From the NCBI GenBank assembly GCA_004335835.1, contig RWJK01001733.1, positions 73,474 to 137,473 on the forward strand: a stretch of DNA of 64,000 nt, in the 5' to 3' direction. The stretch is from Scenedesmus sp. ARA3 (Eukaryota; Chlorophyta; Chlorophyceae; Sphaeropleales; Scenedesmaceae). A model generated the notes under the pieces. That model had not been told where the DNA came from. It did not search any database and was given only the letters and a program-made list of their open reading frames with translations. Positions 292 through 50,871 of the stretch are shown piece by piece. Every line of letters begins with the position of its first letter. Within the stretch, counting starts at the first letter, position 1. Position numbers and translations under genes: made by a program.

Positions 292-1715
292 CAGATACTC
301 AGTGGCAGTGTCCATGCCAAGGGCAACATCCACACCATTACCGTCCCTGCAGGCGATGACAGCAGCAAGCAAACAGATTTCTCACACTGGTGCGATTACC
401 ATGACCAGAATGCTGCCTGGGGCGCGAGCAAGCACTGGAGCTGATGCATTGCGCTGTGATGTCGGTAGCACGGATGCGGTGCCCACCAATGCAGCTTCCT
501 GCAAACCATCTGGAACTTCCACGCATCCTTGCGTTTGAAACACGCAACCTTTCAAAACCCCAGCCCCAGAGCAACATATGCATAGCAGCTGCCTTCAGTC
601 TTTACGTAATACCCAGATGCACATACACTGTATGTCATAATGGCACCGTGACAACCAGCTCACTTGTCCGGCACGATCAGCCGCTGGATGATGGCCCCCA
701 GCGGCAGCACCACCACGCTCATGCCCTTGCTGCTTTGCGTGAGTAGCACGCGTGCGGCGTTCACAATGCAGCTCATCTGCCAAGTGTCTGGTATGCATGC
801 ATCCTTCTACACCCTCAGCTGGTGCGCACACAGCTCTAGGGTATGTCATGCACAGCCGTTGCTTTTACTCTTTACAGGCAGCCCAAATGCACACACACCA
901 GCCGGCTCACTTGTCTGGCACGATCAGCCGCTGGATGATGGCCCCCAGCGGCAGCACCACCTCTAGGACAAGCCATGTACAACAGCTTTTACTGTTCACA
1001 TATCGTTCATATGCACACACACCAGCCGGCTCACCTGTCCGGCATGATCAGCCGCTGGATGATGGCTCCCATATTCATGCATCATCATGATGCAGCGTCC
1101 TGTAGCTGAGGCTGTGTGTTGACACTGTGCAAGTTGCACAGTGCGAACACACAGCCTCAGCTACAGGACGATCCATGAGCAGCAGTTGAGTTGTTGTTTA
1201 CATATAACCCAAATGCAACCGACACACCAGCCAGCTCACTTGTCTGGCACGATCAGCCGCTGGATGATGGCCCCCAGCGGCAGCACCACCACACTCATGC
1301 CCTTGCTGTTGCGCAGCGTGATGTACTCGGCCAGCGCATCCGTGCCATTGCTGCTGCCATTTGCACTGGCATTGCTGCTGCCGTTGACACCAGCCAGCTG
1401 TCCTACCCACGGCTGCGGTACAGGGACAGCGCTGGCATTGCTGCTGCTGCCAGTGGCATTAGCTTCGGGTGAAGGCTGGATGCTTGTCACATTCACAGGG
1501 GGAGCTGGGCTACTGGTGGTATCTGCTGCAGCAGGATTGGATTCGTTGCCTGCCGGGCTTGCAGGTGGCAGCACTACAGTGGTGATGTTGGTGCTGCTGC
1601 TGTTGAGGGCGGCCAGTGCTCCAGGCAGAGCAGGTGCCTCTGCCTGGCCTGCAGCAAGCCTGAGCAGAATGCAGCTGGCACAAAGAACAGCTACTGCAAG
1701 CGAAGACCTCGGCAT
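292..1715 (-). CDS. Aldose 1-epimerase, secreted, 5' part only (exons 1-2)
   Basis: Aldose 1-epimerases (galactose mutarotases) interconvert alpha and beta anomers of hexoses. Exon 1 is 1240-1715 and exon 2 is 292-346, joined in phase to read ITLRNSKGMSVVVLPLGAII, then QRLIVPDKDG, then NGVDVALGMDTATEYL. This matches the family's N-terminal pattern (L-x-N-x-x-G-M-x-V x-G-A-I-I and P-D-x-x-G ... D-V-x-L-G-x-D). The donor after exon 1 is GTGAGC, the acceptor CTGCAG, and the donor after exon 2 GTGAGG. Residues 1-24 form a signal peptide (basic start, hydrophobic core, A-A-G-Q-A end). They are followed by about 110 Ser/Asn/Thr/Ala-rich residues with roughly ten N-x-S/T sequons, so a secreted or lumenal glycoprotein is likely. 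The catalytic domain proper lies beyond the low edge. Three partial copies of the exon 1 end occupy intron 1. Confidence 0.82.
653..1073 (-). repeat. Three partial copies of the epimerase exon 1 end, each with donor
   Basis: Copies at about 653-738, 902-962 and 1026-1073 repeat the 3' end of exon 1 plus the first intron bases, including a GTGAGC donor. The first copy still encodes all of SKGMSVVVLPLGAIIQRLIV followed by PDK with a synonymous change. The second encodes the last ~18 codons intact. The third has V to M and K to R changes. All lie in intron 1. Confidence 0.9.
1096..1170. repeat. 75-bp near-perfect inverted repeat (hairpin)
   Basis: The two 37-base arms are centred on the G at 1133. 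They pair at 35 of 37 positions with a one-base loop. The left arm begins CGTCCTGTAGCTGAGG and the right arm ends with its complement. It lies in intron 1 of the epimerase, between the third partial exon copy and the true exon. It could be a fold-back insertion or a small-RNA precursor; the sequence cannot tell which. Confidence 0.9.
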
Positions 1716-3848: not shown

Positions 3849-5105
3849 GGTGTCTGCTGCTGGATCGCCTGGCAGTCCTGCAGAGACACAGCAAGGTGAG
3901 CGTAGTACAGTACAACAGTGTCAGGTGTGGCCTGCAGGGTTTCAATATGCTCTGCCCTCCTGCAAAAGGCCCTGCCTGCATGACTCGCCACAACTGCCTC
4001 ATATATCCTGTTACAGAGCATGCAAATCAACAAAGCTACAGCTGCTGTGCACTGCAAGTCACTATTTGACAAGACGGACTGGGCGAGGTTCCCAGGTTCT
4101 CAGATTCCCTTCTCATCCCTGCATGCTGTACAGCCTGGCTGTCCTGCAGGCCAATCCCTGCATGCTGTACAGCCAGGATGTCCTGCAAGCCAATTCCTGC
4201 ATGCTGCACAGCCTGGCTGTCCTGCAGGCTGATTCCTGCATGCTGCACAGCCTGGCACAGCACTGCCCCAGCTGCTGGCACTGATGTTTGCATGAACCAG
4301 AGCCTTGTTGTGCACTCGGGCGCACACATACATGCTTCATCCTGGAATGGAGGAACAAATAGTACTGACAGCCCTGCTCTGCTGCGTTGTGCAGAAATTT
4401 GATGCAATGAGCTGCAGCAGGCTGGTTTACCTTGTGCTCGTGACCGTGAGCCTGGGTGACTTGGCCCAGGAAGCTTCAAAACACAACTTCAAGGACCTTC
4501 ATATGCGAAGTGGCTGCAGGTGTGTCTCACGATCGCAACAGGTGCTTGCAGGACTCGTGAGGTCTAGGCTGGGACGGTTTTCAGCAGATACGATGCGACT
4601 CAAGTTTGGCTTAAAAACATTCAGTGGTGTTTAAAAGAACAGGATCGAGGTCATGTTATTCGCACTCGTGTTACCTGCGTACTACATTTCAAATGGTAAC
4701 ACAGGTGTTACACCGGGTTTACCGGCATTCGTAGCAAGATGCTGCGAAAGTTGCTGAGAACAGAATATGCAGGAGCAGATGTGTTTCCTTATTTATCAAC
4801 AATTTACTCATGTCCAGCAGCACACTGATTTGTGGCAAGGTGAGCTGCCTCTGACACTTTCTGTGCAAATTTGCAAAAACCAGAACTCTGCAGATCGAGC
4901 CAAGGGTGCCGTAGAGCACGTATGCCATTAGTTCATTAGCTTGAACACAGCATCAGTGCATGATCGCATGCCACAAAAAGTTTTAGAGCGGCTTACAGCT
5001 CATAGCCTTTGGCCCCCAGCAGCGTCCACACTTCCACACAGCCGCATGGGCCGACAAAAGGCTAGGCACAGACCAGCCAGTCACACAACATGCACAAACA
5101 AGCAC
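3849..5105. other. Region with 39-bp repeats; no supported gene
   Basis: Apart from the 39-bp repeat, this holds no recognised coding sequence. A minus-strand open frame at 4719-4928 has reasonable residue composition but no family match and no phased partner. Confidence 0.4.
4118..4260. repeat. 39-bp tandem repeat, about 3.7 copies
   Basis: The unit runs roughly TGCATGCTGTACAGCCTGGC plus TGTCCTGCAGGCCAATCCC and starts near 4118, 4157, 4196 and 4235. On the minus strand each copy holds CTGCAGGACAGCCAGGC. This resembles the acceptor and exon start near 3885 (CTGCAGGACTGCCAGGC), so the array may derive from a duplicated splice-acceptor segment. Confidence 0.85.
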
Positions 5106-5720
5106 TCAGTTGCGCTGCGCGTTGGCCTTGAGCACTGCCAGCGCCGCCGCAGCCCCAGATAGCATCCTGACTGCCTCCTACAACCTCATGCACACACACC
5201 AGCTGTGCACAACTGCGCCCTCGAATGCCGATTCGGCTGCGCTGCGCATTGGCCGTGAGCACTGCCAGCGCTGCATCCTCCGCCCCAAGCAGCCCTGACT
5301 GCCTGCCAAACCAAGAGCACACACACCAGCTCGGCACAACTTGCTTCGCATTCAGCTGGGCTGCGCGTTGGCCTTCAGCACTGCCAGCGCTGCATCCTCC
5401 GCCCCAAGCAGCCCTGACTGCCTGCCAAACCAAGAGCACACACACCAGCTCGGCACAACTTGCTTCGCATTCAGCTGCGCTGCGCGTTGGCCTTCAGCAC
5501 TGCCAGCGCCGCGTCCTCAGCCCCTATTAGCCCTGACTGCCAGCCAAAACCACATGCACACACACCAGCTCGGCACAACTTGTTTCGCATTCAGCTGTGC
5601 TGCGCCTTGGCCTTCAGCATTGCCACCGCAGCGTCTTCAGCCGCAAGCAGCTCCTTAACTGCCTCCCACAACCAGATGCACACACACCAGCTGTAGACAA
5701 TTACGCCCTCAAATGCCGAT
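5106..5720 (-). repeat. Tandem copies of the EMC3 coding end and stop, period 119-130 bp
   Basis: Five diverged copies, with anchors near 5111, 5238, 5357, 5476 and 5596, lie directly downstream of the authentic sixth copy at 5726. Each matches the last ~20 codons of EMC3 (GAEDAALAVLKANAQRS) plus flanking sequence. Several keep the TGA stop. Confidence 0.92.
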
Positions 5721-7097
5721 TCAGCTGCGCTGCGCGTTGGCTTTTAGCACTGCCAGCGCTGCATCTTCAGCCCCCAGCAGCGTCCACTCGTGCTCGCCCG
5801 CGCCCCAGCCCTGCAGCTCCGTCTTGAACGCCGCCTTCGCGTCAAACCCTGCGCCGCCGGCCATGGGGTTCATCTGCCTCTTCATCATCTCCGTCTCGTC
5901 CAGCGTGTTCTCCCTGAACACTAGGCTGAAAGGGCCTCGGCTTGCAAACAGCAGCGCAAAGTAGTAGGAGAGGCTGGTGAAGTAAGAGACGTCGAGTGAG
6001 GACAGGTCCACGCCGCGCTGCAGCATGGGCCGGAAGCGAGGGGACAGCCCGAAGGGCACCTTGCCCATCACGAAGCCGGAGAAGAAGAAGGACACGGCGG
6101 CGCCCATCACAATCTGCGGCAGCATGCCTGCAAGGATAGATGAGAGAGGAAGCCAGCGGTGACAATGCGGTGGTGGCGGAGGTGGCAAGGGTTAGCAGTG
6201 GCTGCGCACTACAGGCAAGCAAGATTGGTTGGGGGTAGGGGAGGGTTGGGTGGGGTGAGCAAAATCAGCTACGTGCATGCTCATGTATGCAAGGATTCAG
6301 GCACCATATCGATAGGAATAGTCCGAAGGGCACCTTGACCATCACATGGCGCCAGTGGTCTGTTGCTGCATGAAAGTTGACTCTCACCCGTGAGGTTCTT
6401 CTTCATCATGTCAACCATGAAGGAGGGGTCGGTGGCCATGGTCTCGTGCATAGGCCGCGTGCACGGCTCCTTGTTGAACACGCCGCTCTCCTTTTCAGTG
6501 AAAAACTCCCTGCAGCAGCGGCAACGGCGCAGCAGCAGCAGTTAAATGCGTACAGGCCCTGGTCACTGCTGTCGGCAGCTGTGCAGCTTCAGGGCATTCA
6601 GGTACGCAGGGGTAGCCGGCTGGTGTCATCAGGCGAGCTTAATATTTGCAGCGCAAGACGTGCATCAGCAGGAGACATCCCATGGCAAATGCACTGCTGA
6701 CAGCTGCACACTGCTGGCACAGCGCTGGCAGCAGGTGCTGCTGAACAAGCATAGGAAGCTGGGGCTGCTGTTCTCCTGCAACTGCCGCACTGCACTCCAG
6801 CGCACAATAGCGGCAGCAGCACACATGCTCAATCATATCAATCTTCACACCCCGAACTCACTTGCGCATGCGGAAGGCGCTCTCAGGGAGCCAGTTGGCT
6901 GCTGCGCGAATGCGCTGGCTGCGTGTCACGCCCTGCTGCTCCTGGATCTCCGCCAGCACCTTGGTGGTGACGGGTGCTGCTGATGTCATCTGGTGTGCGT
7001 ACTGCATCAGCAGCTTCATAAGCACGATGAACAGCGTGAGAGGGATGAACACCCAGTCGCGCACATTGCTGTCTAGCACGAGCTCGTGGTAGCCCAT
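5721..7097 (-). CDS. EMC3: ER membrane protein complex subunit 3 (EMC3)
   Basis: EMC3 is the Oxa1-superfamily core subunit of the ER membrane protein complex, an insertase for tail-anchored and multipass proteins. Exons are 6862-7097, 6388-6509 and 5721-6127. Donors are GTGAGT and GTGAGA, acceptors CTGCAG and TTGCAG, and the phases close to 254 residues, near the usual ~260. The N-terminus (ELVLDSNVRDWVFIPLTLFI) has the first membrane segment. The middle has DPSFMVDMMKKNLTGMLPQI leading into a second segment, then GFVMGKVPFGLSPRFRPMLQ. A third segment follows (SLSYYFALLFASRGPFSLVF). All are typical of the family. The C-terminus (AAFKTELQGW ... EHEWTLLGAEDAAL) is shorter than in animals. The ATG at 7097 directly precedes the conserved start. 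The coding end is tandemly copied downstream. Confidence 0.93.
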
Positions 7098-8409: not shown

Positions 8410-9699
8410 GTGGTCTTGCTGCTTAGCTGCACAGGGTACTTCTGCATGTGTGCACAACTTGGGAGAGCGGTCCTTCTGGCAAAAACGCTAGACTATGCTA
8501 CGCTGAAGACCGTGTACCTTGCTTGCCGTTTGCAGCAACGGCTTGCAGCAGCAGCTGCTGCCTCCAAGGAGCGCAACAGCCTGCTCTTGCAGGAACTTGA
8601 GTACACTGCGCAGCCTGATGCATCCTGCAGCCCTGCAGCAAACGTGCAGGTGTGCAACACGTGAATCCTGCAAGCAGCTGCCATGCTGTGTATGTGTCGC
8701 GGCACAACCGAAATAGCAACTTGACCAGCAGGTGTTATGCACACATCAGCTGCCCCTCATCGTCTTATTGCAAAAGCCAAATTCGTGTGTATCCTGCAAC
8801 TCTTTGCATAGATAACACTGGTGCCTCTGCTGCCACTGCTGCCGCTGCTGCTGCGCAGCTGTGGGCGCTGCGTGCTGCCTACCAAGCTCTTGTGGCGCGC
8901 AGCTTCCCTCATTGGTACGAATCTGCAGCTCAGCAACTGGCAGAGGAGCAAGCAGTCCAACAGTGAGTATGCCACAAAGCAGAGCAGCAGCCCTGGCAGT
9001 GGCAGCAGCTTTTGTGTGGACACCATGCAGCAAGCAGGCTAACATGTAGGCAAGCACTTGCATGCACAGAAACACGGGATGCCGTCTGCAGCATACGTGC
9101 TGGCCTAGGTGCAGGCCTACTGTGAGTGATTGTATTGAGCCACTGCAGCTGTGTTGGGCACCCAGCAGATAACAACATCCAGGATGCAGGGGCCATGTTC
9201 AAGCTGCTCCTGGTTTCTCGGCTGTAGCTGCGCGCGCTTTTGTCCTTAACTTTGAGTTGTGTGTGCTGCACGTGACAGGGGTCAGCACCAGAGGCCTGCA
9301 GCGGCACAGCCCCCCAACTGCAGCCCTAGCCGGCTGGCAGCAGGCAGGGAAGCGCAGCCGGCAACAGCCGGCCAGTCCTGCAGCCAGCAACATGCTTGGC
9401 TCACCCAGATTAGACAGCAGCAGCAGCAAACGCAACAGAGGCACTTGAAGCAAGGTGATGACGGGCTTGATAGCTTACGCAACCTGCTGCACAGCCGCAC
9501 ACAGCAGCAGCCCACAACAACTTGCAGCAGCAGCAGAGCCTGCGGCAAGGACTTCCTGCAGCAGGCTGCAGCACTGCAAGGTGCAGGTGCTGCTGCTTTG
9601 CAGCCGGAGGTGCTGCAGCAGCTGACACAGACACTGGCTGAGCAGCTCAGCCTGCTGCAGCAGATGGTGCAACTGCAGCAACAGCAACCCCATCATGCT

Positions 9700-9731
<32 letters not shown>

Positions 9732-10577: not shown

Positions 10578-10615
<38 letters not shown>

Positions 10616-10801: not shown

Positions 10802-10832
<31 letters not shown>

Positions 10833-27613: not shown

Positions 27614-29516
27614 GCAGCAGCGGCAGCAGCAGCGGCAGCAGCGGCAGCATCAGCAGCAGCAGCAGCGGCGGCAGCAGCAGCAGCAGCGTCACAAACATGC
27701 ATAACGAACATCAACCTCTGACATACGCCCTGGTTGTGGTCCTTAGCACGTCTCCACCAATTCATCAACAGCTTGACGCTAAAGCGTGCAAGCACAAGCA
27801 CCAGCAGCAGCGAGTAACAGCCAGACGCCTCGTGGCAGCATCAGCAGCATGCTGTGTCTGTTGTTGTATGTGATGTGACAGCAGTAGCTGCATGCCGTCT
27901 GCAAACATTTGTTTTCTGCAGGCAGTGTAGCGGCCATCAAGGTCCCGCAGCTCTGCCAGCTGCTGCAGCAGCTGGGCGAGGTCAAGGTGGCAAGCACCAA
28001 GTCAGCAGCATACTTCTTTTCTCAAGAGCAGCTGCCAGAAAGCTTGGGGCCGATTGCAGGTGGGCAGCACAACTTGGCTGCAGGTTGCCTAGCCAGGTAC
28101 TGCGTCAGTACAGCAACACACCTGTTGGAATAGCAGCAGCAGCAGTAGCAGCAGCAGCGTTTGAGGCTGGGGCATGCAGCACAACAAGCAGCGCAAAATG
28201 CCAGAGCAACGATGTTGGACACCAAGTGAAATGCTTCACACACGCAATTGGGCTGCCCACCTACCAACTCCGCTGAGACTCGCGTGCCATCTGCCGTAAG
28301 TACTAACCTGTGTTATGTACCATGTTGTTTGTCATGTCATTTGCCGTGTCCTGCAGGCGATGAGGCTGAGTGGCACGAGTGGTCCAAGGTGGGCGACCCG
28401 GTCATGCACATTGAGCTGCGGCGCTGGGCTGACGTGCTTGTCATTGCACCGCTGTCAGCCAACTCGCTGGCCAAGCTGGCTAATGGCTTGTGTGACAACC
28501 TGGTGACGTGCATTGCACGCGCGTGGGACTTCAAGCGGCCACTGCTGGTGAGCTAACAGGAAATTTTAGGATACACGCAGCAGGTTGGCAACAGGTGAGT
28601 GTGCTGCAATGGCATCATGTGGCAGTGTGGCAGTGTGTTGCATGGACAGGCAGTGTGCTGGACTGACAGCGGCAGGCGGACAGTCGGAATGATGAACAGG
28701 CATGCCGCTGTCAGCCAACTCGCTGGCCAAGCTGGCTAATGGCTTTTGTGACAACCTGGTGACGTGCATTGCACGCGCCTGGGACTTCAAGCGGCCGCTG
28801 CTGGTGAGTGTGCGGGTGTGTGCAACACACCACTGCACGCCCTGTGCTGCTCCATGCATGCTGCAGGTGCCCCTGCGATGAACACCTTCAAGCTGCTACA
28901 GTGCTCCTGGCACTAAGTCAACACTGATGCACGCCCTGCGGCCCACAATGTAAAATCCTAGACAAAGCCAGGATCCAAAGGACGCTGGTCATGCACAGCT
29001 GCGCACCTTCAAGCAATGCTGAGCCAGCAGACCCGCGCCAAAGTCTCCTGGCACTCCGAGTGGGGCTGTTCATGTAGGCACGGCTGCCACCATGTGCTGC
29101 AGGTGGCGCTTGCCATGGACACCTTCGACCTGGTACAGTGCTCCTGGCACTTACCAAGTGCGCGCTGCTGCACGCACCCCTTGCACTTTGTGCTGCAGGT
29201 GGCCCCAGCCATGAACACCTTCAAAGTGCTGTCCCGTTGCACACACACCAAACTATCTGTTATCACCCTACACTTCATGCTGCAGGTAGCCCCAGCCATG
29301 AACACCTTCATGTGGGACAGCCCCTTCACTGCGCAGCACCTGTTAGCCATCCAGCAGCTGGGCGTGACTGTGGTCGACCCAGTCAGCAAGACGCTGGCCT
29401 GCGGGGACGTGGGGCAAGGCGCAATGGCATCGCCGGAGACGATTGCGGCTGCGTGCGAGGTTGCGCTGCAGGGTTTGGGGTTTGCTAAGCCGGCAGGCAC
29501 TACTGCCCGGCCGTAG
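27462..29516 (+). CDS. Phosphopantothenoylcysteine decarboxylase (HAL3/CoaC)
   Basis: A flavoprotein that decarboxylates 4'-phosphopantothenoylcysteine to 4'-phosphopantetheine in coenzyme A synthesis. Exons are 27462-27513, 27922-28059, 28357-28547 and 29286-29516. Phases 1, 1 and 0 close to 203 residues, close to plant HAL3. Visible signature: ILLAATGSVAAIK (FMN phosphate loop), PVMHIELRRWADVLVIAPLS with the active-site His, and LANGLCDNL. The APAMNTFMW segment carries the catalytic Asn, and LACGDVGQGAM the catalytic Cys. The ATG at 27462 gives the short MQHSKELRPPRILL start usual for cytosolic forms. Intron 1 contains a ~160-bp CAG tract. Intron 3 holds one copy of the exon 3 end and three copies of the exon 4 start. 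Confidence 0.95.
27533..27690 (+). repeat. CAG tract in PPCDC intron 1
   Basis: About 80 bp of pure CAG followed by CAG/CGG/CAT mixtures. It begins 20 bp after the exon 1 donor (GTGTGG at 27514) and could affect recognition of that donor. Confidence 0.95.
28705..29232 (+). repeat. Partial copies of PPCDC exon 3 end and exon 4 start inside intron 3
   Basis: 28705-28810 repeats the last ~100 bases of exon 3 (LSANSLAKLANG ... WDFKRPLL) with few changes and its own GTGAGT donor. Segments at about 28858-28915, 29093-29156 and 29187-29232 repeat CTGCAG plus the first ~26-30 bases of exon 4 (VAPAMNTF), so three extra acceptors precede the true one at 29285. Confidence 0.92.
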
Positions 29517-30189: not shown

Positions 30190-30345
30190 TTACACGTGTC
30201 GGAACCGACACGGCCTGACACGCCTGTGACACGGCCCCGTGTCTTGACACGGAGCCGACACGGACAAACACGGCCCGTGTCAGTGGTCACTACATGCAGC
30301 GTGTCAACACGACGCCGTGTCGAACGTGCTTTCTGCACCGATGAA
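30190..30345. repeat. Cluster of ACACGG/CCGTGT motifs
   Basis: About five ACACGG and three CCGTGT occurrences within 150 bp, many as GACACGG or inverted pairs (for example ACACGGCCCCGTGT). The array is irregular rather than strictly tandem. Confidence 0.75.
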
Positions 30346-33180: not shown

Positions 33181-35159
33181 CAAGGGCAAAACATGTGTCG
33201 GCAAGAACAGAGACGCAGCTGATAGCCTTCCACAAAGCCCACCTGAAGGCTTATGCTTATGCTTAGGTGGAGCGCAGCGCCATGCAGCATGAAACGAAGG
33301 CCGAATTTGTCGCAGGCCAACTGTGAGAATGCAAGACATGCATACTCAACATGCTGCTTTGTACGATACATACAGCATCCACATGCAAGCCTGCCATACC
33401 ACACTGATTAGTCCCCAAGACACCACATCTATGATACTTAACAACACCTGGCAGTGCGCATGCCCCTGGGCAGCAAAGCACCTGCAGGAGGACAATATTG
33501 TAGTAAACAAGGCACGCAGATGAGACACTGCCATCATGTGCCAAATAGACTATCAACAAGGTTGTACACAGCCTGCACGACACACATTCAATGAACACGG
33601 GCAAGCGCAGTGCATGTTGTGCATTTCGCAGAATGCACAACAAATGTAACAGTAACATGTAATGCACAGCAAAGTGCTGGCGCATAGTGCAATGTTGCTG
33701 CATCAGAAGCCTACAACACACAATGAAGGCTGCAAGGTCAACATGCCGGTACAGCTGCTCGTACGGCACGGCATGCGATGCAAGCATCAGCCGAACTATA
33801 AGCTCGAAGCATGCTTGCATGCATGCAAACGATGGATGCAGACACATGCAGAAGGCACGTTGCTGCAACAGCCTACCAAGAGAAGCGCCCCATTGCATCT
33901 GCCCCAGCTGCTGTCGTTCCTCCCGGCCACCGCCAAACACAAACGAGCCTCTCACACAGTCAATTGTACACATGCATGGCATCTCCTTGCACATGTAGCT
34001 CACGGTTATGACTGTTGGTGCACGATCTCAGCCACATATGTAATTGCTTGTGATGTTATGTAAGTATGGCACAATGGACGCAGCTTCTCAACCACACGTG
34101 TGTGATTTGCCGTTACTCCCCTGTCGCTTTTAATCACAAGCCACTAAAGATGCCGCTGGCACTCAGTCAAACTTACACAGCCCCCACCGGCATGTGCCGC
34201 ATGCATGCAGAATTTACCACTTGCTGCCGCAACCGCAATGCAACACACGCAGCCTGCACTGCAGCAACCGGTGCTGTGCAGCTCACTGACACGGATGTGC
34301 AGAATGCAATGCATGTGTGCGTGCCATCCACAGAAGGCTGTGTCACCCTGGAGGGTTCATATCAGACAGCCCCTGGCTAGCAAAGGCACATGATACAACC
34401 AAACCATGCAACTGATGCACGAGAAGCAAGAACACCTGCAGCCAAAGTAAGCAAGCACACCAACAGCATGAGCAGCAGCCCTGCCGGCTGTCGGCTGTAG
34501 AGTCCTAGTAAGAAGAATCACCAACCAGTAACATGCAAACTCCTAACAGATGAGCACATGCAGCAGCAACCCCCCAGGCGAGTGCATAACTGCCCCCTGC
34601 AATGCAGCAACTAATTACCCGCCATGTGTGCCGCCACACAGCTGCTTTGATGCATACGCTGCCAAAGCTGCTGCAAGCACGTTACACAGCCAGCACCATG
34701 CACTGTGTTTCAAATGCATGGCATCACACCCTGCTGCTGCTAACTGCACTCTCAGCAGCCTCAGCAGCAGCACAAGCCACCCAAACCCCGCCCTTGAATC
34801 ACCCCACAGCAGCTGCTGCACATGTCACCTGACCCACAGCTGACTTGTGCTGGCTAACACGCAGGGTGTTTGCTCAGGCGTCTCATGAATCGTCTTGTTT
34901 TTTCCAGTCCTGCCAAGTCGATTATTTTGACGCACATTTTGATCGCAAGTGCTCTGGATGTCTACATGCTTACATGCTATATGCAAACTCTCTGTCAACA
35001 GCACATACATGCTGCTCGACTGCCTGCTGCTGCTGCTGCTGCCGCTGAAGCATCAGCAACCCAATTATTGTGGCACCGCCGCGCCCTTAGCCACTCACAG
35101 CCATTCCACTCAATGGCATCCACACGCCTATGCATGCCCTCCGCCCCTTAAGACACCTG

Positions 35160-35732
35160 CCGTCGCCGCTGCTGCTGCTGCTGCTGGTGCACTGCCAGCC
35201 CCAGCGCTGTGCCCTCCATCACTTGCCGCGCCCCATCAGGCAAAACCCTCCCCAGCATAAGACACCTGTGAGCGCTGCTGCTGCTGCTGCTGCTGCTGCA
35301 TCGCCACCCACCGCGCTGCGCCCTCCATCGCCAGCGCAGCTACATCAGGCAAACCCTCCCCCGCCTACGACACATGCTGCCGCTGCTGCTGCTGCTGCTG
35401 CTGCGGGTGCACTGCCAACCCACGCGCTGCGCCCTCCATCACCCGCCGCGCCCCATCAGGCAGAACCCCCTCGCTCCGCCCGCCTAAGAAACCTGCTGGC
35501 GCTGCTGCTGCTGGTGCTGCTGCTGCTGCTGCTGGTGCTGCTGCTGGTGCTGGTGCACCGCCAGCCTCAGCACAGCCTCCATCACCCGCGCAGCCACATC
35601 AGGCAAAACCCTCCTCCGCCTGAGACACCTGCGGGCGCTGCTGCTGCTGCTGCTGTTGCTGCATCGCCAGCCCCCGCGCTGTGTCCTACAGCACCCGCTG
35701 CGCCCTATCAGCCACAACCCCCTCCCCCACGC
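35160..35732 (-). repeat. Tandem copies of the bZIP coding end, period about 108-142 bp
   Basis: Five diverged copies of the segment around GCCCTCCATCNCCCGC, with anchors near 35211, 35320, 35431, 35573 and 35681, follow the authentic copy at 35790 in the last exon. The units are separated by CTG runs. Confidence 0.9.
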
Positions 35733-37593
35733 CTAAGACACATGCTGGCGCTGCTGCTGCTGCTGGTGCACCGCCAGCCCCCGCGCTGCGCCCTCCATCG
35801 CCCGCTGTGCCCCGTCAGGCCCATGCCGGTGCGGGAACACGAACCGCGGCGGCAGCCCCTGCGCCGCACGCTGCGCCAGCGCATCTTTGACGAGCGTGCA
35901 GGTGATCGCGTGCATATCTGGGAACACCGGGGCACTGAAGATGATAACCTTTGCCTTCTGCAAGCTGCTGAACACTGCGCCAAACACAAAGCTCGTGAGC
36001 ATCACGCGCATCACGTGCTCCTTTTTGAGGTTTGTGGCGAGCGCGTCGAGCACTGGCTGCATGGGGGCGAGGCCGGCAGATATGAGCATGCCCTGTGCGG
36101 GGCCAGAGGCTTGCAGCTGCTGCTGCAGCGTGACGCGCTCGGCTTGCAGCTGGTGCACTGCTGGGAAGTACAGCTCAGCACACGCGGTGATGTGGCGCAC
36201 CTGGACACAGGAAACAGTGTTTGCGCAGGGGCAACAGGTGCAGCAGACGAAAGAAGAAGTGTTGCTTAAGCCATGTCAAAGATTGACACTGCTACTGTGA
36301 TGGTTTTGTTGGGTACTTTACATTGTAAGGCGCGGTGGATCAGTGGCATGCATGGACAGCAAAAGCAGCAAGCCAGCAACACGCAAGGCATACAGAACAC
36401 AGCGCAGCAGCTGCCTCCAGTGGCAGGGCTTCACGTGCGCAACAGCTGCACCATCGCACAGAGCAGCTGCACCCCGACGACCTCATGCAGAAATCAACCC
36501 AGCATGCAGATTACTACACAGGCGATGCAGTACTCATCAAGAATGTATCAGTTGAATAGTAATGCAAGGTGGCTCCCCAAACCCAAACCCACCTGTGGCT
36601 CGCTGAGCCCCAGGCGTGCAATGACCTGCCTCCAGTGCGAGTCATCGTATGCGGCGGGCTGCCCAGTCTCCAGGTTCCTGCCAAACAGCTGGCAGTACGC
36701 GGCTGCAAGGGCAGGCAACACACGGCGGCATAGAGGAGGTACGTTAGGCATGTGACTGTGGAAAAACAGAATTGGGAGAAATCTGTGGGTACTGGTAGAG
36801 ACTCATGCAAGCAAATGTGGAATCCATTGCAATAACATCGTGCAGCATCACAACCCTGCCATGTGCAGTACACTTCATGCACTTGCCGTCAGCACCTGTA
36901 ACATAGGCACAGCAACACAACTGCACCCAAAAGATTACAGCAAGCCCAGCAAACATTTTCATATAAAATGATCATATACCAATGCAAACATAGAGCCAAA
37001 ACCGATGGCCGCGCCCACCTGGGTTGAGTGTGGCTGCCAGTCTGAACATATACCTGCAGCGCTCCGTGAGCTGCTGCAGCCGCTGCTCACTCAAGCTGCT
37101 GAAGCCCCCACTGTCCTCAGGCTTTGCAGCAGCAGCAGCAGCAGCAGCAGCGGCAGCAGCACCAGGCCATGCAGCAGCACCCCCACCACCTGCCGCTGCA
37201 TGTGCTGCTGCAGCTGCAGCTGCCGCAGCGCCCTTCTCCTGCTGCACTGCCACCAGCTCGTCGCTCAGCTCCTTGACAAACAGCCTGAAGTGCTGCACAA
37301 TGTCTGCCACTGACATCTCCTTGATGAGCTCAGGACAGCTTTTTGCGCGCTGCGCTGAAGGGCTGCCTGCATCTGCATGATGCCCCTTCCCAGCACTGCT
37401 GGAGCTGTGGTAATCCCCAGCAGCGGTTATGCCAGAGATGCCAGACCCTGCTGCAGCAGCGGCAGTGTGGCCGCTGCTGTCCATGCTGCTGGCTGGCGCT
37501 GCTGCTGCAGCAGCAGCAGCGACTTCGGGCACGGGTGCTGCTAAGTCATGCAGCTCCTGCAAGCTCCTGCAGCGCCTCGACAGCGCTGCTGGC

Positions 37594-37627
<34 letters not shown>

Positions 37628-39749
37628 GGTGGCCAGACTGTGGCAGCGCCAAGCTGCCTGTGCCTTCAAATGACTCATGAAAATGATGGTGGTGTTGTGG
37701 GTCCTCTGACAGAGCCAGGGAGCTTGCAGAGTCATACACGGGCGGGCCATGCTCGCGCGTCACCTGCACCTGTGTGTTGAAGCCGTGCAGAGAAGCAAGC
37801 AGAGCATGCACTGCTGTGTCAGAGCTGTATCGCAGCAGTCTTGCAATCACTCCACCAACAGGGCATGGCCTCACTTAGGCACGGCAGCCATGTGTGCTTG
37901 TAAGACAGACAGCACTCCCAGCAGCTGCTGCCACCCCAACACGATCCCACTGCTGCTTGCAGGACAGCTGCTGCTTGCAGGACAGCCACCGACCGCTTGC
38001 AGGACTCATGGGACATGCAATATGAACCTTGTGTAAAGCAGTCGCCGGCTTCAACATCAAACAGCACAGGATGCTTGCAGAGCAAACGGCAGCAGCAGCG
38101 CTCAGCGCAACCTCACCGCATACTCCCGGCTCGCCACTGTTGACTCCAGCACGCTCGCGCGCAGCTTCAGCATCTCATTCTCTGCAGCCAGCAGCTGCAG
38201 CTGGCCCAGCTTGCCTTCTAGCTCTGCTTCTAAGCCCCCCATGAGGCCACGCTGCCGCTGCCTGTGGTGGCAGTACACAGTGGTACGAAATCATGAGTCG
38301 TGTTACAAGAAAAATGAGCAGCTGCAGCTGGCCCAGATTGCCTTCCAACTCAGCCTCCAGGCCAGCCACCAGGCCGCGCTGTCGCTGCCTGCAGGAAAGT
38401 CAAACGTGAGTCATCTTACACTGATACCTGATGATTACGCTAGAGCAGGTGGGGCGAAAGTTATTGAAGAGTCATTAGTACGCTGGAGGCAGCAACCTAT
38501 TCTTGATAGAATGGCCAACGGATGGCGTGGCCACACTTCTCACCTGTTGCCGAAGTTGCCCCATCCCCAACCCCACCACAGCGTGCTTATCAGACGCAAC
38601 AAGCTAATGCATCGCGACAAGCTAATGCATCGCGAAGGGATTTGCAGCTGCATGTAGTCTTAAAGACATAAGGGAGCTGCAGGCATACGTGCTTCACATG
38701 TCCTGCAAAGCCCTGCTGCCTGCCCGCCTCACCCACCTGTAGCGCCGCGATGCATCACCAGACTTTGTGAGCGGCTTGCCAGTAGCTGCAGACACGTTGC
38801 CGCCGTGCTTGCCGCTGCCACTGCTGCTGCGTGGCTTGCTGCGCTTCTCAGCAGCAGGGCCAACACCAGATCCAGCAGCAGCAGATGCCGCAGGTGCTGT
38901 GCTGCTGAAGTGTACGTGCACTGGCGGCGGAGACGCTACAAGCTGCGGCTGCAGCAGCTGCCCAGGTTGCGGCATGCTGCCAAAGGCCAGCGGTGCTGGT
39001 GCGCCAGGGGCCAGGGGCCAGGGGCCTTGGCTCATGCTGCCAAATCCAGCAGTGGTTGCTGCCGGGGAGGCTGGCAGTGGGAACTGCTGGCTCTGCTGGT
39101 GCTGGTGCTGCTGCATGAGCTGCTGCGGCAGCATGTGCGCCAGTGGCAGCTGCTGAAGTTGTTGCTGTTGCTGCCGCTGCTGCTGCTGCTGTTGTTGTTG
39201 CTGCTGTTGTTGCTCCAACAGCAGCTGAACTGACAGCTGCTGCTGCTGTTGCTGCAGCGGCAGCAACAGCTGCGGCTGAGGCCGCACCTGCTGCGGTTCC
39301 TGCAGCAGGGGCATGCTCAGGCCCAGGCCCAAGTTTGACTCGTGTGCCTGCTGCAAAACACCAGCTGCTGGAGGCTGACTTGCAGCGAACAGCAGCTGCT
39401 GTTGTTGCTGAAACATCATCAGCTCCTGGTTCAGGCCATACTGGGGCATCCCAAGATTAGCTGCATGCGCTGCTGCTTGGTTGCTGTTCCCCTGCTGCTG
39501 CCAGGCACCAGGTAGAGAGAGAAACGCGCCCGCTGGCGCAGTAGAAGCCTCCATAGTACTCATGAAGTCATGAAGTTGATTGCCAGCACCCCACGTAGCG
39601 ACTTCGACCTGGTTACGTGATGTAATGTAATCAGCCTGCGGGAACACCACCCCTAAGGACCCCGCCAGTTCTGCGTCATGCGGAAAGGAGAACGCTCCGG
39701 GTCCACTTTGCACAAGACCCAACCAGCTGCTACCACCCGGGATGTCCAT
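35733..39749 (-). CDS. Atypical bZIP transcription factor with extended C-terminal domain
   Basis: Exons are 38737-39749, 38117-38261, 37019-37769, 36593-36702 and 35733-36200. The phases close to 828 residues. Residues 1-320 are Gln/Pro-rich and probably activating. The basic region SGDASRRYRQRQRG spans the exon 1-2 junction, and the zipper follows (LEAELEGKLGQLQLLAAENE, then MLKLRASVLE) with Leu at heptad spacing. The invariant Asn of the bZIP basic region appears replaced by Ser or Gly. The C-terminal part has conserved-looking helical segments: DIVQHFRLFVKELSDELVAV, SEQRLQQLTERCRYMFRLAA, and AAYCQLFGRNLETGQPAAYD. It ends in ELYFPAVHQLQAERVTLQQQ and a Met/Leu-rich tail. Poly-Ala runs interrupt exon 3. 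An extra partial copy of the exon 2 start lies in intron 1. DNA specificity is unknown. Confidence 0.82.
38308..38393 (-). repeat. Partial copy of bZIP exon 2 start with acceptor
   Basis: On the minus strand a TTTCCTGCAG acceptor is followed by a copy of the exon 2 start (RQRGLVAGLEAELEGNLGQL) with substitutions relative to RQRGLMGGLEAELEGKLGQL. No matching donor follows; the copy runs out at LLIFLV. It lies in intron 1, upstream of the true exon. Confidence 0.9.
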
Positions 39750-40510: not shown

Positions 40511-43102
40511 TCAGCGCCTGTCAGCGCCAATCAGCAGCTCCAGCAGGGTCGGGCACAGCGTGCTGGGTGCAGGCAGCACATGCGACGGCGCATCAAACAG
40601 CTGCGCCACTGCTGCCTTCACCGCAGCCTCCGCTGCAGCAGCGCCAGCCGCACCGCCTGCTGCTGCTGCTGCCGGCGGCTGCTCAAACTTGCCAAACATC
40701 GCCTCAAGTGCTGACTCATCGCCCCCTGCTGCCAGCTCAGCTTCCATCGCTGCTCTTGTGCCAGACGGCACTGCGGCATCACCTGCTGCTGCTGCTGCTG
40801 CCGCATCGCTGCTGCCAGCTTCTGCTGCTGCACTTGCTGGTATGAGCCGCGTGTACCGCCTGTCATCTGTTAGAACCAGCAACTGTGACATGCGCTGCTG
40901 CTGCTGGGTGGCGGCTGCACCCTTGCTGCTGCTGCTGCTGCTGCTGTGTAAGAACAGCAGGCTACCAGGGCTGCTGTCTGGCACTGCTGCAGCAAACAGT
41001 GGTGAAGGGTTTGCTGGGCTAAACACCACAACCAGCCCTTGCTGCTTGACACCCTGCTGCTGCTTGTCTGCTTCCTGCTGCTGCTGCTGCTGCTGCTGCT
41101 TTTGCTGCTTCCCACCCCCCTGCTGCTGGTGTTGCTGGTCTTGCTGCTCAGCAGCAGCACTGCCGTCTGCTGCTGCACCTGCTGCGCTGCTGCTGCTGCT
41201 GCTGCTGGCTAGCGCTGGCACGCCTACTGCAAACAGTGGATAAGCAGGATCTACAGCTAAGCTGCACACCGGCAGGTTGCAGTACCAGCTGACAGCACCA
41301 TTCAGCAAGTCCCACACAACTACACTGCTGCCCCAGCTGCCCTGTGCCTGATCCTGCTGCTGCTGCTGAGCGCTACCATCTGCTGCTGCTGCTGCTGCTG
41401 CCGCTGGATCGCCGCCGCCAACCAGCCCGACTAGGTGTGGGCTGTTGTGCACAAAGTTCAGCTGCCGCAAGCTACCGCCGCTGCTGCTGCATTCTGCAGG
41501 GCACACCAGCGTCCCCACCAGTGCATTCTCATATGGATCCCATAAAGTAGCTGTAGCGCCAGCTGCTACAGCCAGCAGGGACCCATCCTGGCTGAAGCTA
41601 CAGCCGTTCAAACCTAAACCCTTATACCCTCCCACTGCACTGCAGCGCCAGTGCCGTGCCGGCTCTGCTACAGCCTCACTGCTGCTGCTGCTGGGCTTGT
41701 GCTGTGCAGCAGCAGCTTTGCTACGCTGCCATACCTTGAACTCGCCTTCGCTGCCGGTAGTAACAGCCATATGCTGAGTAGGGTGGCAGCACAGGCCAGT
41801 GACGACGCCCCTGTGTGGCGCATCAGCGCTGGTGTTCAGGGAGTAAGGCACGCCGCTGCTAGCCACCTGGCTGCTGCTGCTGCAGTCCCAGAACCGCAAC
41901 GTGGACTCCGCTGCTGCTGCTGCTGCTGTGCTGTGTAAGCCGCCTGTAGCTGGCCGCACATCCACTGTGATAAGGGACTGGCCATCGCCTGTAAATGCTT
42001 GCAGGACAACTGCCTGAGTGAGCGGTGCTGCTGCCGCGCCTGTTGCTGCCGCTGCTGCGTGGTTGCTTGCTGCCTCGGTGAGGCTCACAGGGTTGCGAGG
42101 TGACACCTGTGAGCAGGGAGGAAAAGCAGCAGCATTTCAGGTAAGTCCAGGGGTGCATTGATGTTTTGACCAAGGCGGGTGTGACATATCGTGCGTCTGA
42201 CCTGCAAAGGCAGTGGTGTGATATGTGCGGGTATAAGACACTGCTGGAAGCATGAGACGCCAGCGACACCTGCAATCACCGGTACTCACGCCCACAAACA
42301 AGGTACTGCAGCACACACATATACAATCAGCATCCCAGACTAGAGGCCCACACCGCCCTCACCTGCAGCCGCGCCACATGCCTGTCCCTCGCCACGTCAA
42401 AGAACTGCAGGTTGGCATGCTCAGCAGGCAGCACCAAGTCCCCGCTGCCAGGCTGCAGCACCACCCCAGCAGGGCTGCTGGCGGCTGCCGCACACCATCC
42501 AACAAACACCTTGCAAGCACCCCATCCACATGAAGAATGACGCCATAACAAGTACAGATCTCACATCAACTCCACGGTCTTGAGAAACCCCAAACCGCCC
42601 CTACCTGCAGCCGCGCCACATGCCGGTCCCTCGCCACATCAAAGAACTGCAGGTTGGCATGCTCAGCAGGCAGCACCAAATGCCCACTGCCGGGCTGCAG
42701 CACCACCCCTGCAGGGCTGCTCGCGGCTGCGCTGCAGCAGCAGCCGTAGCCGGCGGCTGCCAGTGCTGCTGCTGCTGGCGGCGGCCGCAGCCCGTGGATT
42801 GAGAGCTCCACTGACATGGCTGCTGTGTTCACCAGCCGCACTGTGTTGTCTGACTGGGCAACGAAGAACCTGTCGCGATACAAGATGACAGTTTCCAAAA
42901 GACAGAGCAGTCAGGCACAGCATGTTAGCAGCAGCTCGTGTGACTTGGAAGCAAAAGTGCATGCAGGTCGGCTGACAGTCCAACGAAGGATTCACGCTTG
43001 CTGCTCTACAGCCAACCACAACATCAAAGACAGCCGCACAGGACATGTCATCAAAGCACAGTTTCACCATCCAGACAGGGTTCCATGCATTATTTGAACG
43101 AG

Positions 43103-43149
<47 letters not shown>

Positions 43150-46779: not shown

Positions 46780-47855
46780 TTAGCCCACTGAGCCTTCCAG
46801 CTTGAGGTTCATGAGCTCATTCACCTCTGCCGCAAACTCCAGCGGCAGCTCGTTGAAGACCTCCCTGCAGAAGCCTGAGATGATCATGCCCACGGCCGCC
46901 TCCGCTGCCACGCCGCGCTGCTGGAAGTAGAAGAGCTGGTCCTCGCCGATCTTGCTGGTGGACGCCTCGTGCTCCACAACAGCAGACGGCTCGCGCACCT
47001 ACGCAATATGGTGAGGACAGAGTTTATCTGCGCAATGTGACGGGACCGTCAAGGTGCACACGCCGCGGCCAACAGAACAAGGCATGCTGGCAGCAGTGCG
47101 AACTGGGAGCCGCATGCTATGAGCACCTGGCTGCCGCTGCTTCTGCTGCTGCTGCTGTTGTATGTGCAAATTCCCTGTGCAAGTGCCGCTTGCCTGCCAG
47201 CCAGCCGCCGCACCTGGATGTATGGGTAGGTGTTTGCGCCGGCGTTGTCGCCAATGAGCATGCTGTCGCACTGGCTGTGGTTGCGCGCACCCTTGGCGCT
47301 CGGCTGCACCTGCGGCAGCAACAACAGAAGCGTGCCTTACAGGCTGTCAGCAGCAGCAAATATGAAGGGTGTCTGGCCATCGCCAGAGCACCAGTGCCTG
47401 AAACGTACTTGGAATGAACTGCGCACGGGCATGCGCCACTACACACAGACTTTAAAGCACACAACATCTGCAGGCGTGCAGACACCACAATGCCGCACCT
47501 GCACCAGGCCCTTGTACGCATTGACGCTGTTGCCGGCGCTGATGCTCTTGGACACAATGCGGCTTCAAAACCTATGTCTCATACCCTGCACGAGCTGACC
47601 CAAACTGCTGCGCAACTCGACGCAGGTGTCCATACTGCGCTAACTCAAGGCACAGGTGTCCATACTGCGCTAACTCAAGGCACATGCTTGACAACACAGC
47701 TACTCAGCCCCAAAGATCAGCAGGCGCACGCGAATCCTTCAAGGAAAAAACACAACTTGCGCAACGCGCACCTGCACCAGCCCCCTGTATGCGTTCACGC
47801 TGTTGCCGGCGCTGATGCCCTTGCTGACAATCCTGCTGCGCGTGTTCTTGCCCAC

Positions 47856-47888
<33 letters not shown>

Positions 47889-49074
47889 CATGTTGTTGGT
47901 GAGCGCGACGCTGAAGAACTGGCCCACGCTGCCGTCGCCCTTGAGCACCACGCTCGGGTACTTCCAGGTGATGGCGGAGCCGGTCTCCACCTGCAGCACA
48001 TTTGTAACATAACTGTAACACTGTAACATTGTAACGTGATTTGAACGAACAAAGACATGCGATGCCCTTCAGCACCACGTTGGGGCACTTCCAGGTGATG
48101 GCACTGCCCATCTCCACCTGCAGCAGGTATTGCAGTTGTAAACAGCTACACTGAATCATGCCAACGACAACGACAACCAAGGTGTTGCTCCTCCAGTGAA
48201 TTCCAAATGAATCGGCTGATGGCTGCTGCTGTTCAACTGCTTGCTGCTTGTATGCGTCAATACCAGCACCACACTGCGCCCACCTGCGTCCAGCTGATCT
48301 TTGAGTTGTCGCCGTGGCACAGCCCGCGCTTGGTCACAAAGTTGTAGATGCCGCCGCGGCCCTCCGCATCACCAGCATACCAGTTCTGCACCGTGCTGTA
48401 CTTGATCTCTGCACCAGCGCCAGCTGACAGCTCCACCACAGCCGCATGAAGCTGGTTGCTGTCATATGCTGGAGCAGTGCAGCCCTCCAGGTATGACACA
48501 TACGCCTCATCCTCTGCAATGATGAGTGTACGCTCAAACTGCAGACAGAAAGATGTGGATTGCAGCGCGGAAACGAAGCACCAGTGGCAGTGCTGTCAGC
48601 CATGAGGGTACACCTTGAAGGCAGCCACAACAAAACTGATGCCATTACATAGCTGAAGAACAACATGCACTTGGCTTGCTAAACAACCTGCCGATCTTCC
48701 AGCTGTCACAGGATGCTGCTGCTGCAAGCCTGCATGCATCAAGCAGCTTATGAACCGGCCGACACCACCACCGCTGTTGCTGCTGCCGCTGCTGCCCCGC
48801 TGCTGCCTTCCTGCTGCCAATTACTGCCCTGCTGCTGCTGACTACTGCCCTGCTGCCGCTTTGGTGCTGCTCCTGCTGCTGCCCTGCTGTTGATTTGCAC
48901 TGTCTCCACAGGCTGCACCTGGCCTGTCTTGCTGAAATTGATCGTGCTGCCCTGCCCCGCTACTGCTGCAGCCCAGCCGCACCTGCCCTACTCCTGCTGC
49001 CCTGCTGCTGCTGCTGCTGCTGCTCTGCACTGCCACAAGTGGCCGCACCTGACCGGTCTCGCTGACTTTGATCA

Positions 49075-49128
<54 letters not shown>

Positions 49129-50871
49129 GTTTTATCGCACCAGGCCGCACCTGGCCTGTCTCGCTGGCGTTGATCCTGCTGCCCTGCCCCACTGCTGCTG
49201 CCGCCCAGTCGCACCTGACCTACTGCTGCTGCCCTGCTGCTGCTGCTGCTGCTGCTCTACCCCGCCTATAACCGCCCGCACCTGTCCTGTCTCGCTGGCG
49301 TTGATCCTGAAGTACGTGGACAGCTCCATGGGGCTCTTCACGCCCTTGGGCACAAACACAAAGCTGCCGTCACTGAACACCGCGCTGTTCAGCGCAGCGT
49401 AGTAGTTGTCGGCAGCAGGCACCTGCAGAGCAGGTTGCAGCAGTTGATGCAGATGCAGCACAAACTCAGCACAGCATGATTGTCGGCAGCAGGCACCTGG
49501 TGAAGCAGAGTAACAGAACGTGCAGACGCAGCCAACGAAACCTCAGCGTGTGGAGTGGAGATGAGGCGATAGCTGGCACTGCACAGTCACTGTTGATGGC
49601 TGCTGCTGGACAGTGGAGTTGTGATGTGCCGGGCGGGTCGTTGCACCACAGCCCTGAGCTGAGCACAGCAACATCTGCTGCTGCTGTTTGCTCTTCGCCA
49701 GCACACCCAGCGCTGCCTGCCGCTGCTGCTGCTGCCGTCGCTCGATGTCCTGCTTGGCATTGGTGCCGCCATTGCTGCCACACAGAGTGGCTTAGCAAGC
49801 CTTGGTGGTCGACGCGTCATGCACACAACAAGGTCAATTATGCACGACTGCTGCATGCATGCAAAGAGTCTGCGTGACTCATAGCAGCAACGCTAATTGC
49901 CTGACTAGTGGACAGCCCTCAAGGACCCCTGGCGGGGGCACCGCGGCACGTCAGGCTACTCTTCTGGATTTAAAGATGTACCTGATGCTGCAGTGTGAAT
50001 CGGGCAGCATGCAAACACCCGCTGCATGTGCAGATCTCAACAAAACACAACCCCCCAAAACCATGCATGCGACTATCTGCTGCTGCTGTTGCTGCTGCTG
50101 CGTTGCTGGCGCCCAGCACTTCCCGCCGCCCGTTTTCCTGCAAGCCCTGCTGCAGCAGTCACTCACCACGCTGCCCAGGTGCTTGCGGACCAGCTCAGGG
50201 TACTCCTTGACTGCTTCGCTGATGGAGCAGAAGATGACGCCTGCCTTGCCCAGCTCCTCCCTGAAGGTGGTGGCAATGGACACTGAGTCAAAGACAGCAT
50301 CCACAGCCACGTTGGCCAGGCGCTTCTGCTCGTTGAGCGGGATGCCCAGCTTGTCGAAGGTACGCAGCAGCTCTGGATCAACCTCATCCAGGCTGGCCTT
50401 CTTCTCCTTCATCTTTGGGGCAGAGTAGTAGCTGAGGTCTTGGAAGTCGATGACCGGGTAGCGGTTGTCTGACCAGTGTGGCTCCTCCATGGTCAACCAT
50501 TTCTTGAATGCGCGCAGCCTGAACTCCAGCATCCACTCTGGCTCGTTCTTCTTGGCCGAGATGGCTCGCACCACGTCCTCGTTCAAGCCCTTGGGGAAAG
50601 TGTCGCTCTCAATGAACGTTTTAAAGCCATACTTGTAAGGCCGGTTCATCATCTGCGAGAGCTGCTGCTTCTCGTCCAACTCGGGCTGCTGCTGCTGCAA
50701 GTCCACTGCAGCTGCTGGCTCCGTGCTGGCTGCTGCTTGCACTCGCAGGCGCTTCTGCGATCTGCATGATGCGATCCTGCCGCATGCATGCTGCTGCTTG
50801 GCACGCTGCTGGGCTACGGCAGGCCCCAGAGGCCTGCCTGTAAGCGAGTGTTGCATGCTTGCAGTGGGCAA
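46780..50871 (-). CDS. SUFB: SufB, plastid Fe-S cluster scaffold subunit
   Basis: Scaffold of the SUF (SufBC2D) machinery that assembles Fe-S clusters in plastids. Exons are 50167-50871, 49282-49422, 48284-48538, 47772-47990, 47214-47309 and 46780-46998. All are phase 0 and give 544 residues. The first ~60 residues (Arg/Ala/Gln/Ser-rich, with [20 protein letters not shown]) look like a chloroplast transit peptide. Then come [33 protein letters not shown] and [15 protein letters not shown]. The core has [70 protein letters not shown] and [20 protein letters not shown]. It ends with [20 protein letters not shown] and the EGSVG terminus. These are diagnostic of SufB. Several introns contain duplicated exon ends. 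Confidence 0.97.
47494..47558 (-). repeat. Copy of SufB exon 4 end with donor
   Basis: It encodes [19 protein letters not shown] and a GTGCGG donor, against [19 protein letters not shown] in the true exon at 47772 onward. It lies in intron 4, downstream of the true donor. Confidence 0.92.
48061..48127 (-). repeat. Copy of SufB exon 4 start with acceptor
   Basis: A CTGCAG acceptor is followed by [19 protein letters not shown], against [19 protein letters not shown] in the true exon at 47990. It lies upstream, in intron 3, so both ends of the same exon are duplicated outward. Several TGTTACA words separate the copy from the true acceptor. Confidence 0.92.
48912..49178 (-). repeat. Three copies of SufB exon 2 end with donors
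   Basis: Copies near 49145-49178 (RINASETGQ, identical), 49042-49076 (VIKVSETGQ) and 48912-48947 (TINFSKTGQ) are each followed by GTGCGG or GTGCAG. Two shorter donor-only fragments lie near 48976 and 49206. CTG runs separate the copies. All are in intron 2. Confidence 0.9.
49077..49128. repeat. (CTG)n run in SufB intron 2
   Basis: About 17 uninterrupted CTG units, between two of the exon 2 end copies. Confidence 0.95.

Follow-up and report, generated by a model that had tools for sequence, protein, structure and literature searches.

Why should the introns of a green alga hold partial copies of the exons beside them, complete with what look like splice sites? The question is raised by a stretch of 64,000 nucleotides from Scenedesmus sp. 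ARA3 (contig RWJK01001733.1, positions 73,474–137,473; hereafter the window), for which an earlier note had described partial exon copies in an adjacent intron of five genes, those for an epimerase, PPCDC, bZIP, WDR75 and SufB. Self-comparison, reading of the sequence and targeted alignments confirmed such copies in all five. We find that they recur across a sample of the genome and resemble debris of local DNA duplication more than working spare parts. Tentatively, we favour the reading that they are remnants of recombination, out of register, with functional alleles that have diverged and whose introns can no longer be aligned.

The genome comprises 87.3 Mb in 1567 contigs, the window accounting for 64 kb thereof. 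Our scan sample consisted of the window and 25 loci of at most 10 kb each (20 taken at even steps of contig number and five picked by hand), 313 kb in total. Gene models came from a home-made two-strand hidden Markov model gene finder, trained on the exons of the window and then on its own reliable predictions. For each reliable junction, 60-nucleotide (nt) queries were compared with 1.5 kb on each side at a score threshold of 40. Exon 3' ends had a copy downstream at 49 of 203 junctions and upstream at 17, and exon 5' starts had a copy upstream at 47 of 211 and downstream at 11. The first 60 nt of introns were copied downstream in 11 of 180 cases and upstream in five, the last 60 nt upstream in 16 of 173 and downstream in three. 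Control queries with a copy on either side numbered 7/82 (mid-exon), 17/195 (mid-intron) and 1/20 (intergenic), and matches in inverted orientation numbered 0 or 1 per query class. As the earlier note had held, the copies are not random repeats: none of 345 random query-flank comparisons passed the threshold (maximum score 33), and exon ends set against introns of different genes never did so in 189 comparisons. Exon ends were also copied more often than the adjoining intron, with odds ratios of 4.9 for donors (p = 8e-7) and 3.1 for acceptors (p = 2e-4). Both values were obtained with unmasked queries, with which the contrast was unchanged, and masking of CAG repeats is thus not its cause.

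The same contrast appeared in ten genes supported by a domain or an orthologue, among them those for ribosomal protein L3, ThiD/ThiE, an MIF4G protein, a haem peroxidase, a biotin carrier protein and an EF-hand protein (where a name goes further than the Pfam family, it is our own reading). These genes were chosen for having copies, so that the contrast is meaningful and the rate is not, and 27 predicted exons had been excluded beforehand as pseudo-exons, being at most 15 nt long or similar to a longer exon within their gene. Exon ends had a match in their own intron in 23/58 and 25/56 cases, the first and last 60 nt of introns in 7/51 and 8/48, mid-exons in 4/19, and all intron tiles, which include the exon-derived copies themselves, in 110/492. 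The gene finder labels some copies as exons: among 96 junction-copy pairs, the copy lay wholly outside predicted exons in 51 and at least half inside them in 41. At least 20 base pairs (bp) of predicted exon were present in 123 of 160 nonredundant local repeats, against a mean of 70 and a maximum of 85 in 300 random placements, a count inflated by the copies that were themselves predicted as exons. In the sampled 313 kb, recurrence and presence across the genome were therefore borne out.

The copies are directional, although the rule of the earlier note, by which copies of exon 3' ends lie downstream and copies of 5' starts upstream, is strong without being absolute, as wrong-side copies stand at 17 of the 203 and 11 of the 211 junctions. 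A duplication over a donor would keep the protein intact only if the copy came to lie downstream, and one over an acceptor only if it lay upstream. The directionality would thus be explained by survival without selection, since only duplications that leave a usable outer splice site would persist.

The real exons and copies of the five window genes are as follows. Pfam backs four of the five; bZIP was identified via a matching peptide in protein P0003. The name PPCDC is that of the earlier note and our own reading of a gene whose Pfam match is to the Flavoprotein family.

1240..1715, minus strand: aldose 1-epimerase exon 1 (real), its 3'-end donor at 1240 reading AA before and GTGAGC after the junction
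1023..1071, minus strand: epimerase exon-end copy 1 with donor, in the downstream intron, 90% identical to 652–700
899..961, minus strand: epimerase exon-end copy 2 with donor, from self-comparison and sequence reading
652..739, minus strand: epimerase exon-end copy 3 with donor, 94% identical to 1228–1313
28357..28547, plus strand: PPCDC-like exon (real), PF02441 Flavoprotein, ending at 28547
28705..28808, plus strand: PPCDC exon 3'-end copy with donor GTGAGT, 97% identity
28869–28890 and 29112–29138, plus strand: weaker PPCDC start copies, scores 34 and 26 (threshold 40)
29199..29223, plus strand: PPCDC exon 5'-start copy, upstream, behind ctgcag, score 45
29286..29516, plus strand: next PPCDC exon (real), from sequence reading, gene finder and Pfam
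38117..38261, minus strand: bZIP exon (real), ends set by eye, with a near-identical peptide in Tetradesmus obliquus protein P0003
38317..38391, minus strand: bZIP 5'-start copy with acceptor, upstream, 10 synonymous and 3 nonsynonymous differences
42605..42869, minus strand: WDR75 exon (real), end at 42605, motif GSGHLVL
42363..42488, minus strand: WDR75 3'-end copy with donor, 7 synonymous differences and 1 nonsynonymous
47772..47990, minus strand: SufB exon (real), PF01458, within 309 residues that are 100% identical in protein P0051
48064..48125, minus strand: SufB 5'-start copy with acceptor ctgcag, upstream, from self-comparison and sequence reading
47494..47564, minus strand: SufB 3'-end copy with donor gtgcgg, downstream, from self-comparison and sequence reading
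49282..49422, minus strand: SufB exon (real), end at 49282, from gene finder, Pfam and protein match
49151..49178, minus strand: SufB 3'-end copy with donor, downstream; weaker copies at 49049–49073 and 48919–48946

Joined to the next exon, the epimerase exon end scored a marginal 27.4 bits for PF01263 (cut-off, 27). The WDR75 protein deduced from the window is 99% identical to P0001, and 99% identical to T. obliquus OEZ85_002682 in a best local alignment covering 37% of the query. Of the 539 residues of P0051, the 309 aligned with SufB are all identical; its source contigs are at most 2598 bases long, so the P0051 gene should be largely intron-free. These matches point to T. obliquus or a closely related scenedesmacean green alga as the source. 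The SufB exon that starts at 49422 has a start copy of only 17 nt, which, with a score of 34, lies under the threshold. Two side observations concern these genes. A long inverted repeat (hairpin) lies between the exon-end copies of the epimerase intron, at about 1096–1170 of the window. One bZIP residue is alanine in the window copy and in the real exon of T. obliquus P0003, and glycine in the real exon of the window; here the copy retains a state present in another strain.

Over the 96 pairs, the similarity between junction and copy extended a median of 66 nt into the exon for donors and 53 nt for acceptors, and 9 nt and 21 nt, respectively, into the intron. Ungapped identity in 27 donor copies fell from 0.81–0.89 in the last exon bases and the GT to 0.30–0.59 from the sixth intron base, and in 26 acceptor copies from 0.88–0.92 at the AG to 0.50–0.65 from the fifth base upstream, the intron values being depressed by indels. 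About half of the copies are thus limited to the exon: among 53 intronic copies, 24 share at most 15 nt of intron, 14 share 16–60 nt and 15 share more than 60 nt. Pairs with at least 90% exon identity behave likewise, with at most 15 nt of intron shared by 12/23 copies at donors and 13/29 at acceptors. Beyond the PPCDC copy at 28705–28808, the intron, judged by eye, has no similarity. The adjoining 60 nt of intron were copied along with 9 of 46 copied donor ends and 14 of 41 acceptor ends; copied intron stretches were accompanied by an exon copy in 9/11 (donor) and 14/16 (acceptor) cases.

The plainest origin would be neutral tandem duplication over junctions within one chromosome, after which the exon is protected while the copy and the intron decay, so that exon ends stay recognisable for longer. 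The copies are direct and local with the direction expected of such a process, more than 15 nt of intron is shared in 29 of the 53, and intron similarity was significant in 11 of 12 tested pairs of the group sharing more than 60 nt. There is also a precedent in an RdRp variant of potato, for which a passage of PMC4974935 describes a local direct duplication crossing an intron-exon boundary. We simulated neutral, uniform tandem duplication, the exon being under selection, in six settings of 300 genes each, and the simulated order was the reverse of that observed. Mid-intron copies (0.22–0.43) exceeded exon-end copies (0.10–0.31), against the observed 17/195 mid-intron and 49/203 and 47/211 at exon ends. 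Intron flanks came with 0.38–0.63 of simulated donor and 0.58–0.77 of simulated acceptor copies, ranges that lie above the observed 9/46 and 14/41. The simulation is simple and does not contain the repeat-rich, slippage-prone nature of the introns, making it a strong hint and not proof. Plain duplication also leaves unexplained the synonymous bias described below. Both this bias and the abrupt stop near the splice site in about half of the copies resist it, and as a full account we consider it fairly unlikely.

The earlier note had further claimed that several copies keep the reading frame with few or conservative changes, which agrees with what we see. Compared over equal-length stretches, 11 of 12 window copies (the epimerase copy at 1023–1071, without a frame match, was omitted) carry 38 synonymous and 20 nonsynonymous differences and no stops. 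These stretches contain no gap, although longer alignments of one epimerase copy show a 2-nt gap. Some codons that differ silently are two or three base changes apart (AGG/CGC, AGC/TCC and TCC/AGT in SufB; TTA/CTG and CTA/TTG in bZIP). In the 51 pairs whose copies are wholly intronic, differences are likewise biased towards synonymous ones, with 133 synonymous and 91 nonsynonymous, a nonsynonymous share of 0.41 (0.32–0.49 by bootstrap over pairs). The neutral expectation is about 0.60, assuming equal mutation and an exon almost free of amino-acid change. CpG mutation bias does not account for the synonymous excess: with context-dependent rates, the expected nonsynonymous share is still 0.73. 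The observed share was 13/49 in pairs with at least 90% identity and 78/175 in the rest (p = 0.03), with synonymous divergence (dS) of about 0.14 and 0.29 and nonsynonymous divergence (dN) of 0.019 and 0.087. By our own arithmetic, these two classes fit a dS of about 0.10 at birth followed by neutral decay on both sides. In families with at least two intronic copies, changes private to the exon numbered 23 synonymous and 14 nonsynonymous.

Recurrent gene conversion between an exon and an old tandem copy might also keep the exon parts similar as the introns drift apart. Between two intronic copies, identity was 0.86 in the exon part and 0.66 in the intron part (43 pairs; unrelated introns, 0.51), as conversion would have it, but this contrast is inflated by the selection of pairs on exon similarity. 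Moreover, if the copy is neutral between conversions, a nonsynonymous share of about 0.60 is predicted in every class, whereas the most similar class has 0.27. We regard it as very improbable.

We therefore return to recombination with diverged alleles. In this model, introns would lengthen by frequent short-range (mostly about 100–300 bp) direct duplication or mis-joined repair, and events crossing a junction would persist only where the outer splice site still works. Copies of exon ends would then remain in the intron as non-coding relics, on the downstream side of donors and the upstream side of acceptors. The exon part of many copies would derive from a diverged functional version of the exon, carried by a different allele or haplotype and joined in the wrong register during recombination or repair. 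In line with such a source, exon and copy sometimes have differing sites that are both donor-like. After birth, the copy would decay neutrally, as suggested by a nonsynonymous share that increases with divergence. Similarity would stop at the splice site because allelic introns have diverged and exons have not, and a probably untranslated copy would differ mostly at synonymous sites because its source was a functional allele. The general mode of intron growth proposed in the earlier note is thus supported as far as the copies occur across the sampled genome, while the mechanism, with its allelic source and its recombination step, is what we infer. A bolder form, in which exon ends are preferentially and repeatedly copied from diverged alleles by exon-confined recombination and introns become an archive of past alleles, seems to us doubtful. 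Open-access literature searches returned no description that we recognised of such exon-end copies or of this mode of intron growth.

Several observations weigh against an allelic source. No diverged source allele was found: queries with SufB, WDR75 and PPCDC gave no second locus (for the SufB region, 40 of 335 candidates in the whole-genome search were scored). Displaced intron similarity reached p = 0.05 in 6 of the 24 copies sharing at most 15 nt of intron, where about one is expected, and the 29 of 53 that share more than 15 nt point the same way; together they indicate that some of the copies arose by plain tandem duplication. With 6 of 24, displaced similarity is no general explanation for the stops at the splice site. 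The yardstick of 0.60 for the synonymous bias depends on assumed rates. Changes private to some copies numbered 83 synonymous and 102 nonsynonymous, a share of 0.55 against a neutral 0.73, so that the copies, too, show fewer amino-acid changes than expected of neutral DNA. Allelic birth accounts for this only if several alleles are sources. Finally, gaps in wholly intronic copies were divisible by three in only 4 of 24, which also counts against coding use.

An allele-like pattern could instead arise in the assembly, if two or more diverged haplotypes or strains had been strung together by the assembler. Similarity limited to exons and differences that are mostly synonymous are what this would give, and runs of N occur in 7 of the 26 sequences sampled, although some may not be assembly gaps. 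Stringing together the arms of a bubble, however, predicts that the copy of an exon start comes first, and the end copy came first in 6/6 introns with both, which contradicts simple bubble stringing. Two or more near-junction copies stand at 37 of the 96 junctions, identities vary widely, and the missing second locus for SufB, WDR75 and PPCDC speaks against simple stringing of haplotypes as well. P0035, a metagenome protein of a relative that reads through an intron, apparently with a similar exon-end repeat, also counts against an artefact. We judge an artefact to be unlikely. The P0035 repeat (TSKADPARC / TSKAGPSRC) is short, was seen by eye and lies at another WDR75 junction, one for which the window yielded no such repeat; it suggests that the process also occurs in other algae. 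A protein search with the ThiD/ThiE gene (L009) for another T. obliquus assembly found none among the matches listed, the best being 49% identical.

Could the copies nevertheless be used, or kept by selection, as alternative exon ends or as decoy or recursive splice sites? Some features would suit such a role: protein-level conservation within copies, a site scoring within 2 of the real one or better in 17/27 donor and 18/26 acceptor copies, and one outscoring the real site in 8/27 and 7/26. On average, however, sites score lower in the copies, at 3.3 against 6.3 for real donors (27 copies) and 4.8 against 7.0 for real acceptors (26 copies). The splice bases that the earlier note had described as kept are indeed present (GT or GC in 22/27 donor copies, AG in 22/26 acceptor copies), at about the level expected from general identity: GT is retained at 0.85 per base against 0.81–0.89 in the adjoining exon, and AG at 0.88–0.92 against 0.92–1.00. 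A second splice site at the inner end of the copy was found at chance frequency in donor copies (5/27; chance, 0.20) and in none of 26 acceptor copies (chance, 0.08), and spacing showed no preference for multiples of three (18, 22 and 13 of 53 across the three remainders).

Protein records tell the same story. In the SufB and WDR75 records found, the residues are those of the outer exon. The motifs of the SufB copies (25 residues in addition to NAYKGLVQ) were absent from all fetched proteins, among them the 120 listed out of 7997 SufB matches, and a 12-residue SufB motif was present in 70 of the fetched proteins; the absence from the 120 listed relatives suggests that the SufB copy is unconstrained now. 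Likewise, the motif GSGHLVL of the real WDR75 exon occurs in P0001, P0002, P0003 and P0035, and the copy version GSGDLVL in none of the fetched proteins. Judged from DNA and protein records, a working function of the copies is unlikely, and use or selection as splice sites is, in our estimate, quite improbable. The two functional suggestions of the earlier note, selection for redundant splice sites and a source of alternative splicing, are accordingly not supported.

Among known systems, intron gain by tandem duplication (ATP2A1; the potato RdRp variant) is similar in being a local direct duplication that involves a splice junction. It differs in that a new intron arises there, whereas existing introns lengthen here, with the copies inside the intron instead of at its far end and the intron flank missing in about half. 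In line with this, 0 of the 53 intronic copies lay within 10 nt of the other end of the predicted intron, and the end-before-start order of the 6/6 introns is not that of intron gain from an AGGT segment, which would set a copy of the upstream exon's end against the new acceptor and one of the downstream exon's start against the new donor. Introners, intron-generating transposable elements, likewise increase intron content genome-wide, but spacers and flanks here form no repeat family in the 313-kb sample. Only 2 of 106 segments had a match, of 29–32 nt, at a different sampled locus, and among the SufB-region candidates scored in the whole genome, matches elsewhere fell only in the repeat-rich part. 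Within this scope, neither a mobile element nor an introner is supported.

Tandem exon duplication with alternative splicing resembles our case in its coding-like copies beside an exon, and some sampled pairs are near whole-exon duplications, for example those in L023 (1057–1415) and L019 (minus strand, 8567–9105), with 86–97% identity and mostly synonymous differences; these are candidate alternative exons. The intronic copies differ in having a second splice site only at chance frequency, and neither this nor their out-of-frame spacing is that of mutually exclusive or cassette exons. Recursive splice sites are a further system for comparison. On sequence alone, the likeness lies in SufB, where the exons at 46780–49422 of the window start with GTG behind the AG in 4/5, so that the acceptor AG touches a donor-like GT, and the donors read CAG before and GTG after the junction in 4/4. 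Such look-alike junctions may favour mis-joining or recursive splicing.

Other repeats in the window include a direct repeat array of about 119 bp at 5102–5781 (Tandem Repeats Finder: period 119, 4.5 copies at 5231–5781) and an array with a spacing of about 110 bp at 35137–35820, several units of which contain a CTG run. A dispersed sequence of 70–130 bp at about 30096–30231 has 89–98% matches on three other contigs and adjoins an ACACGG-rich stretch, possibly forming a small repeat family.

The gene finder took many copies for exons, and published gene models of such genomes may therefore contain false exons; if the copies were an assembly artefact, analyses of such genomes would be affected as well. 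If recombination with diverged alleles is their true source, introns would record past exon alleles and recombination would help to set intron length, and the long-standing question of where new intron sequence comes from would become testable in a culturable alga.

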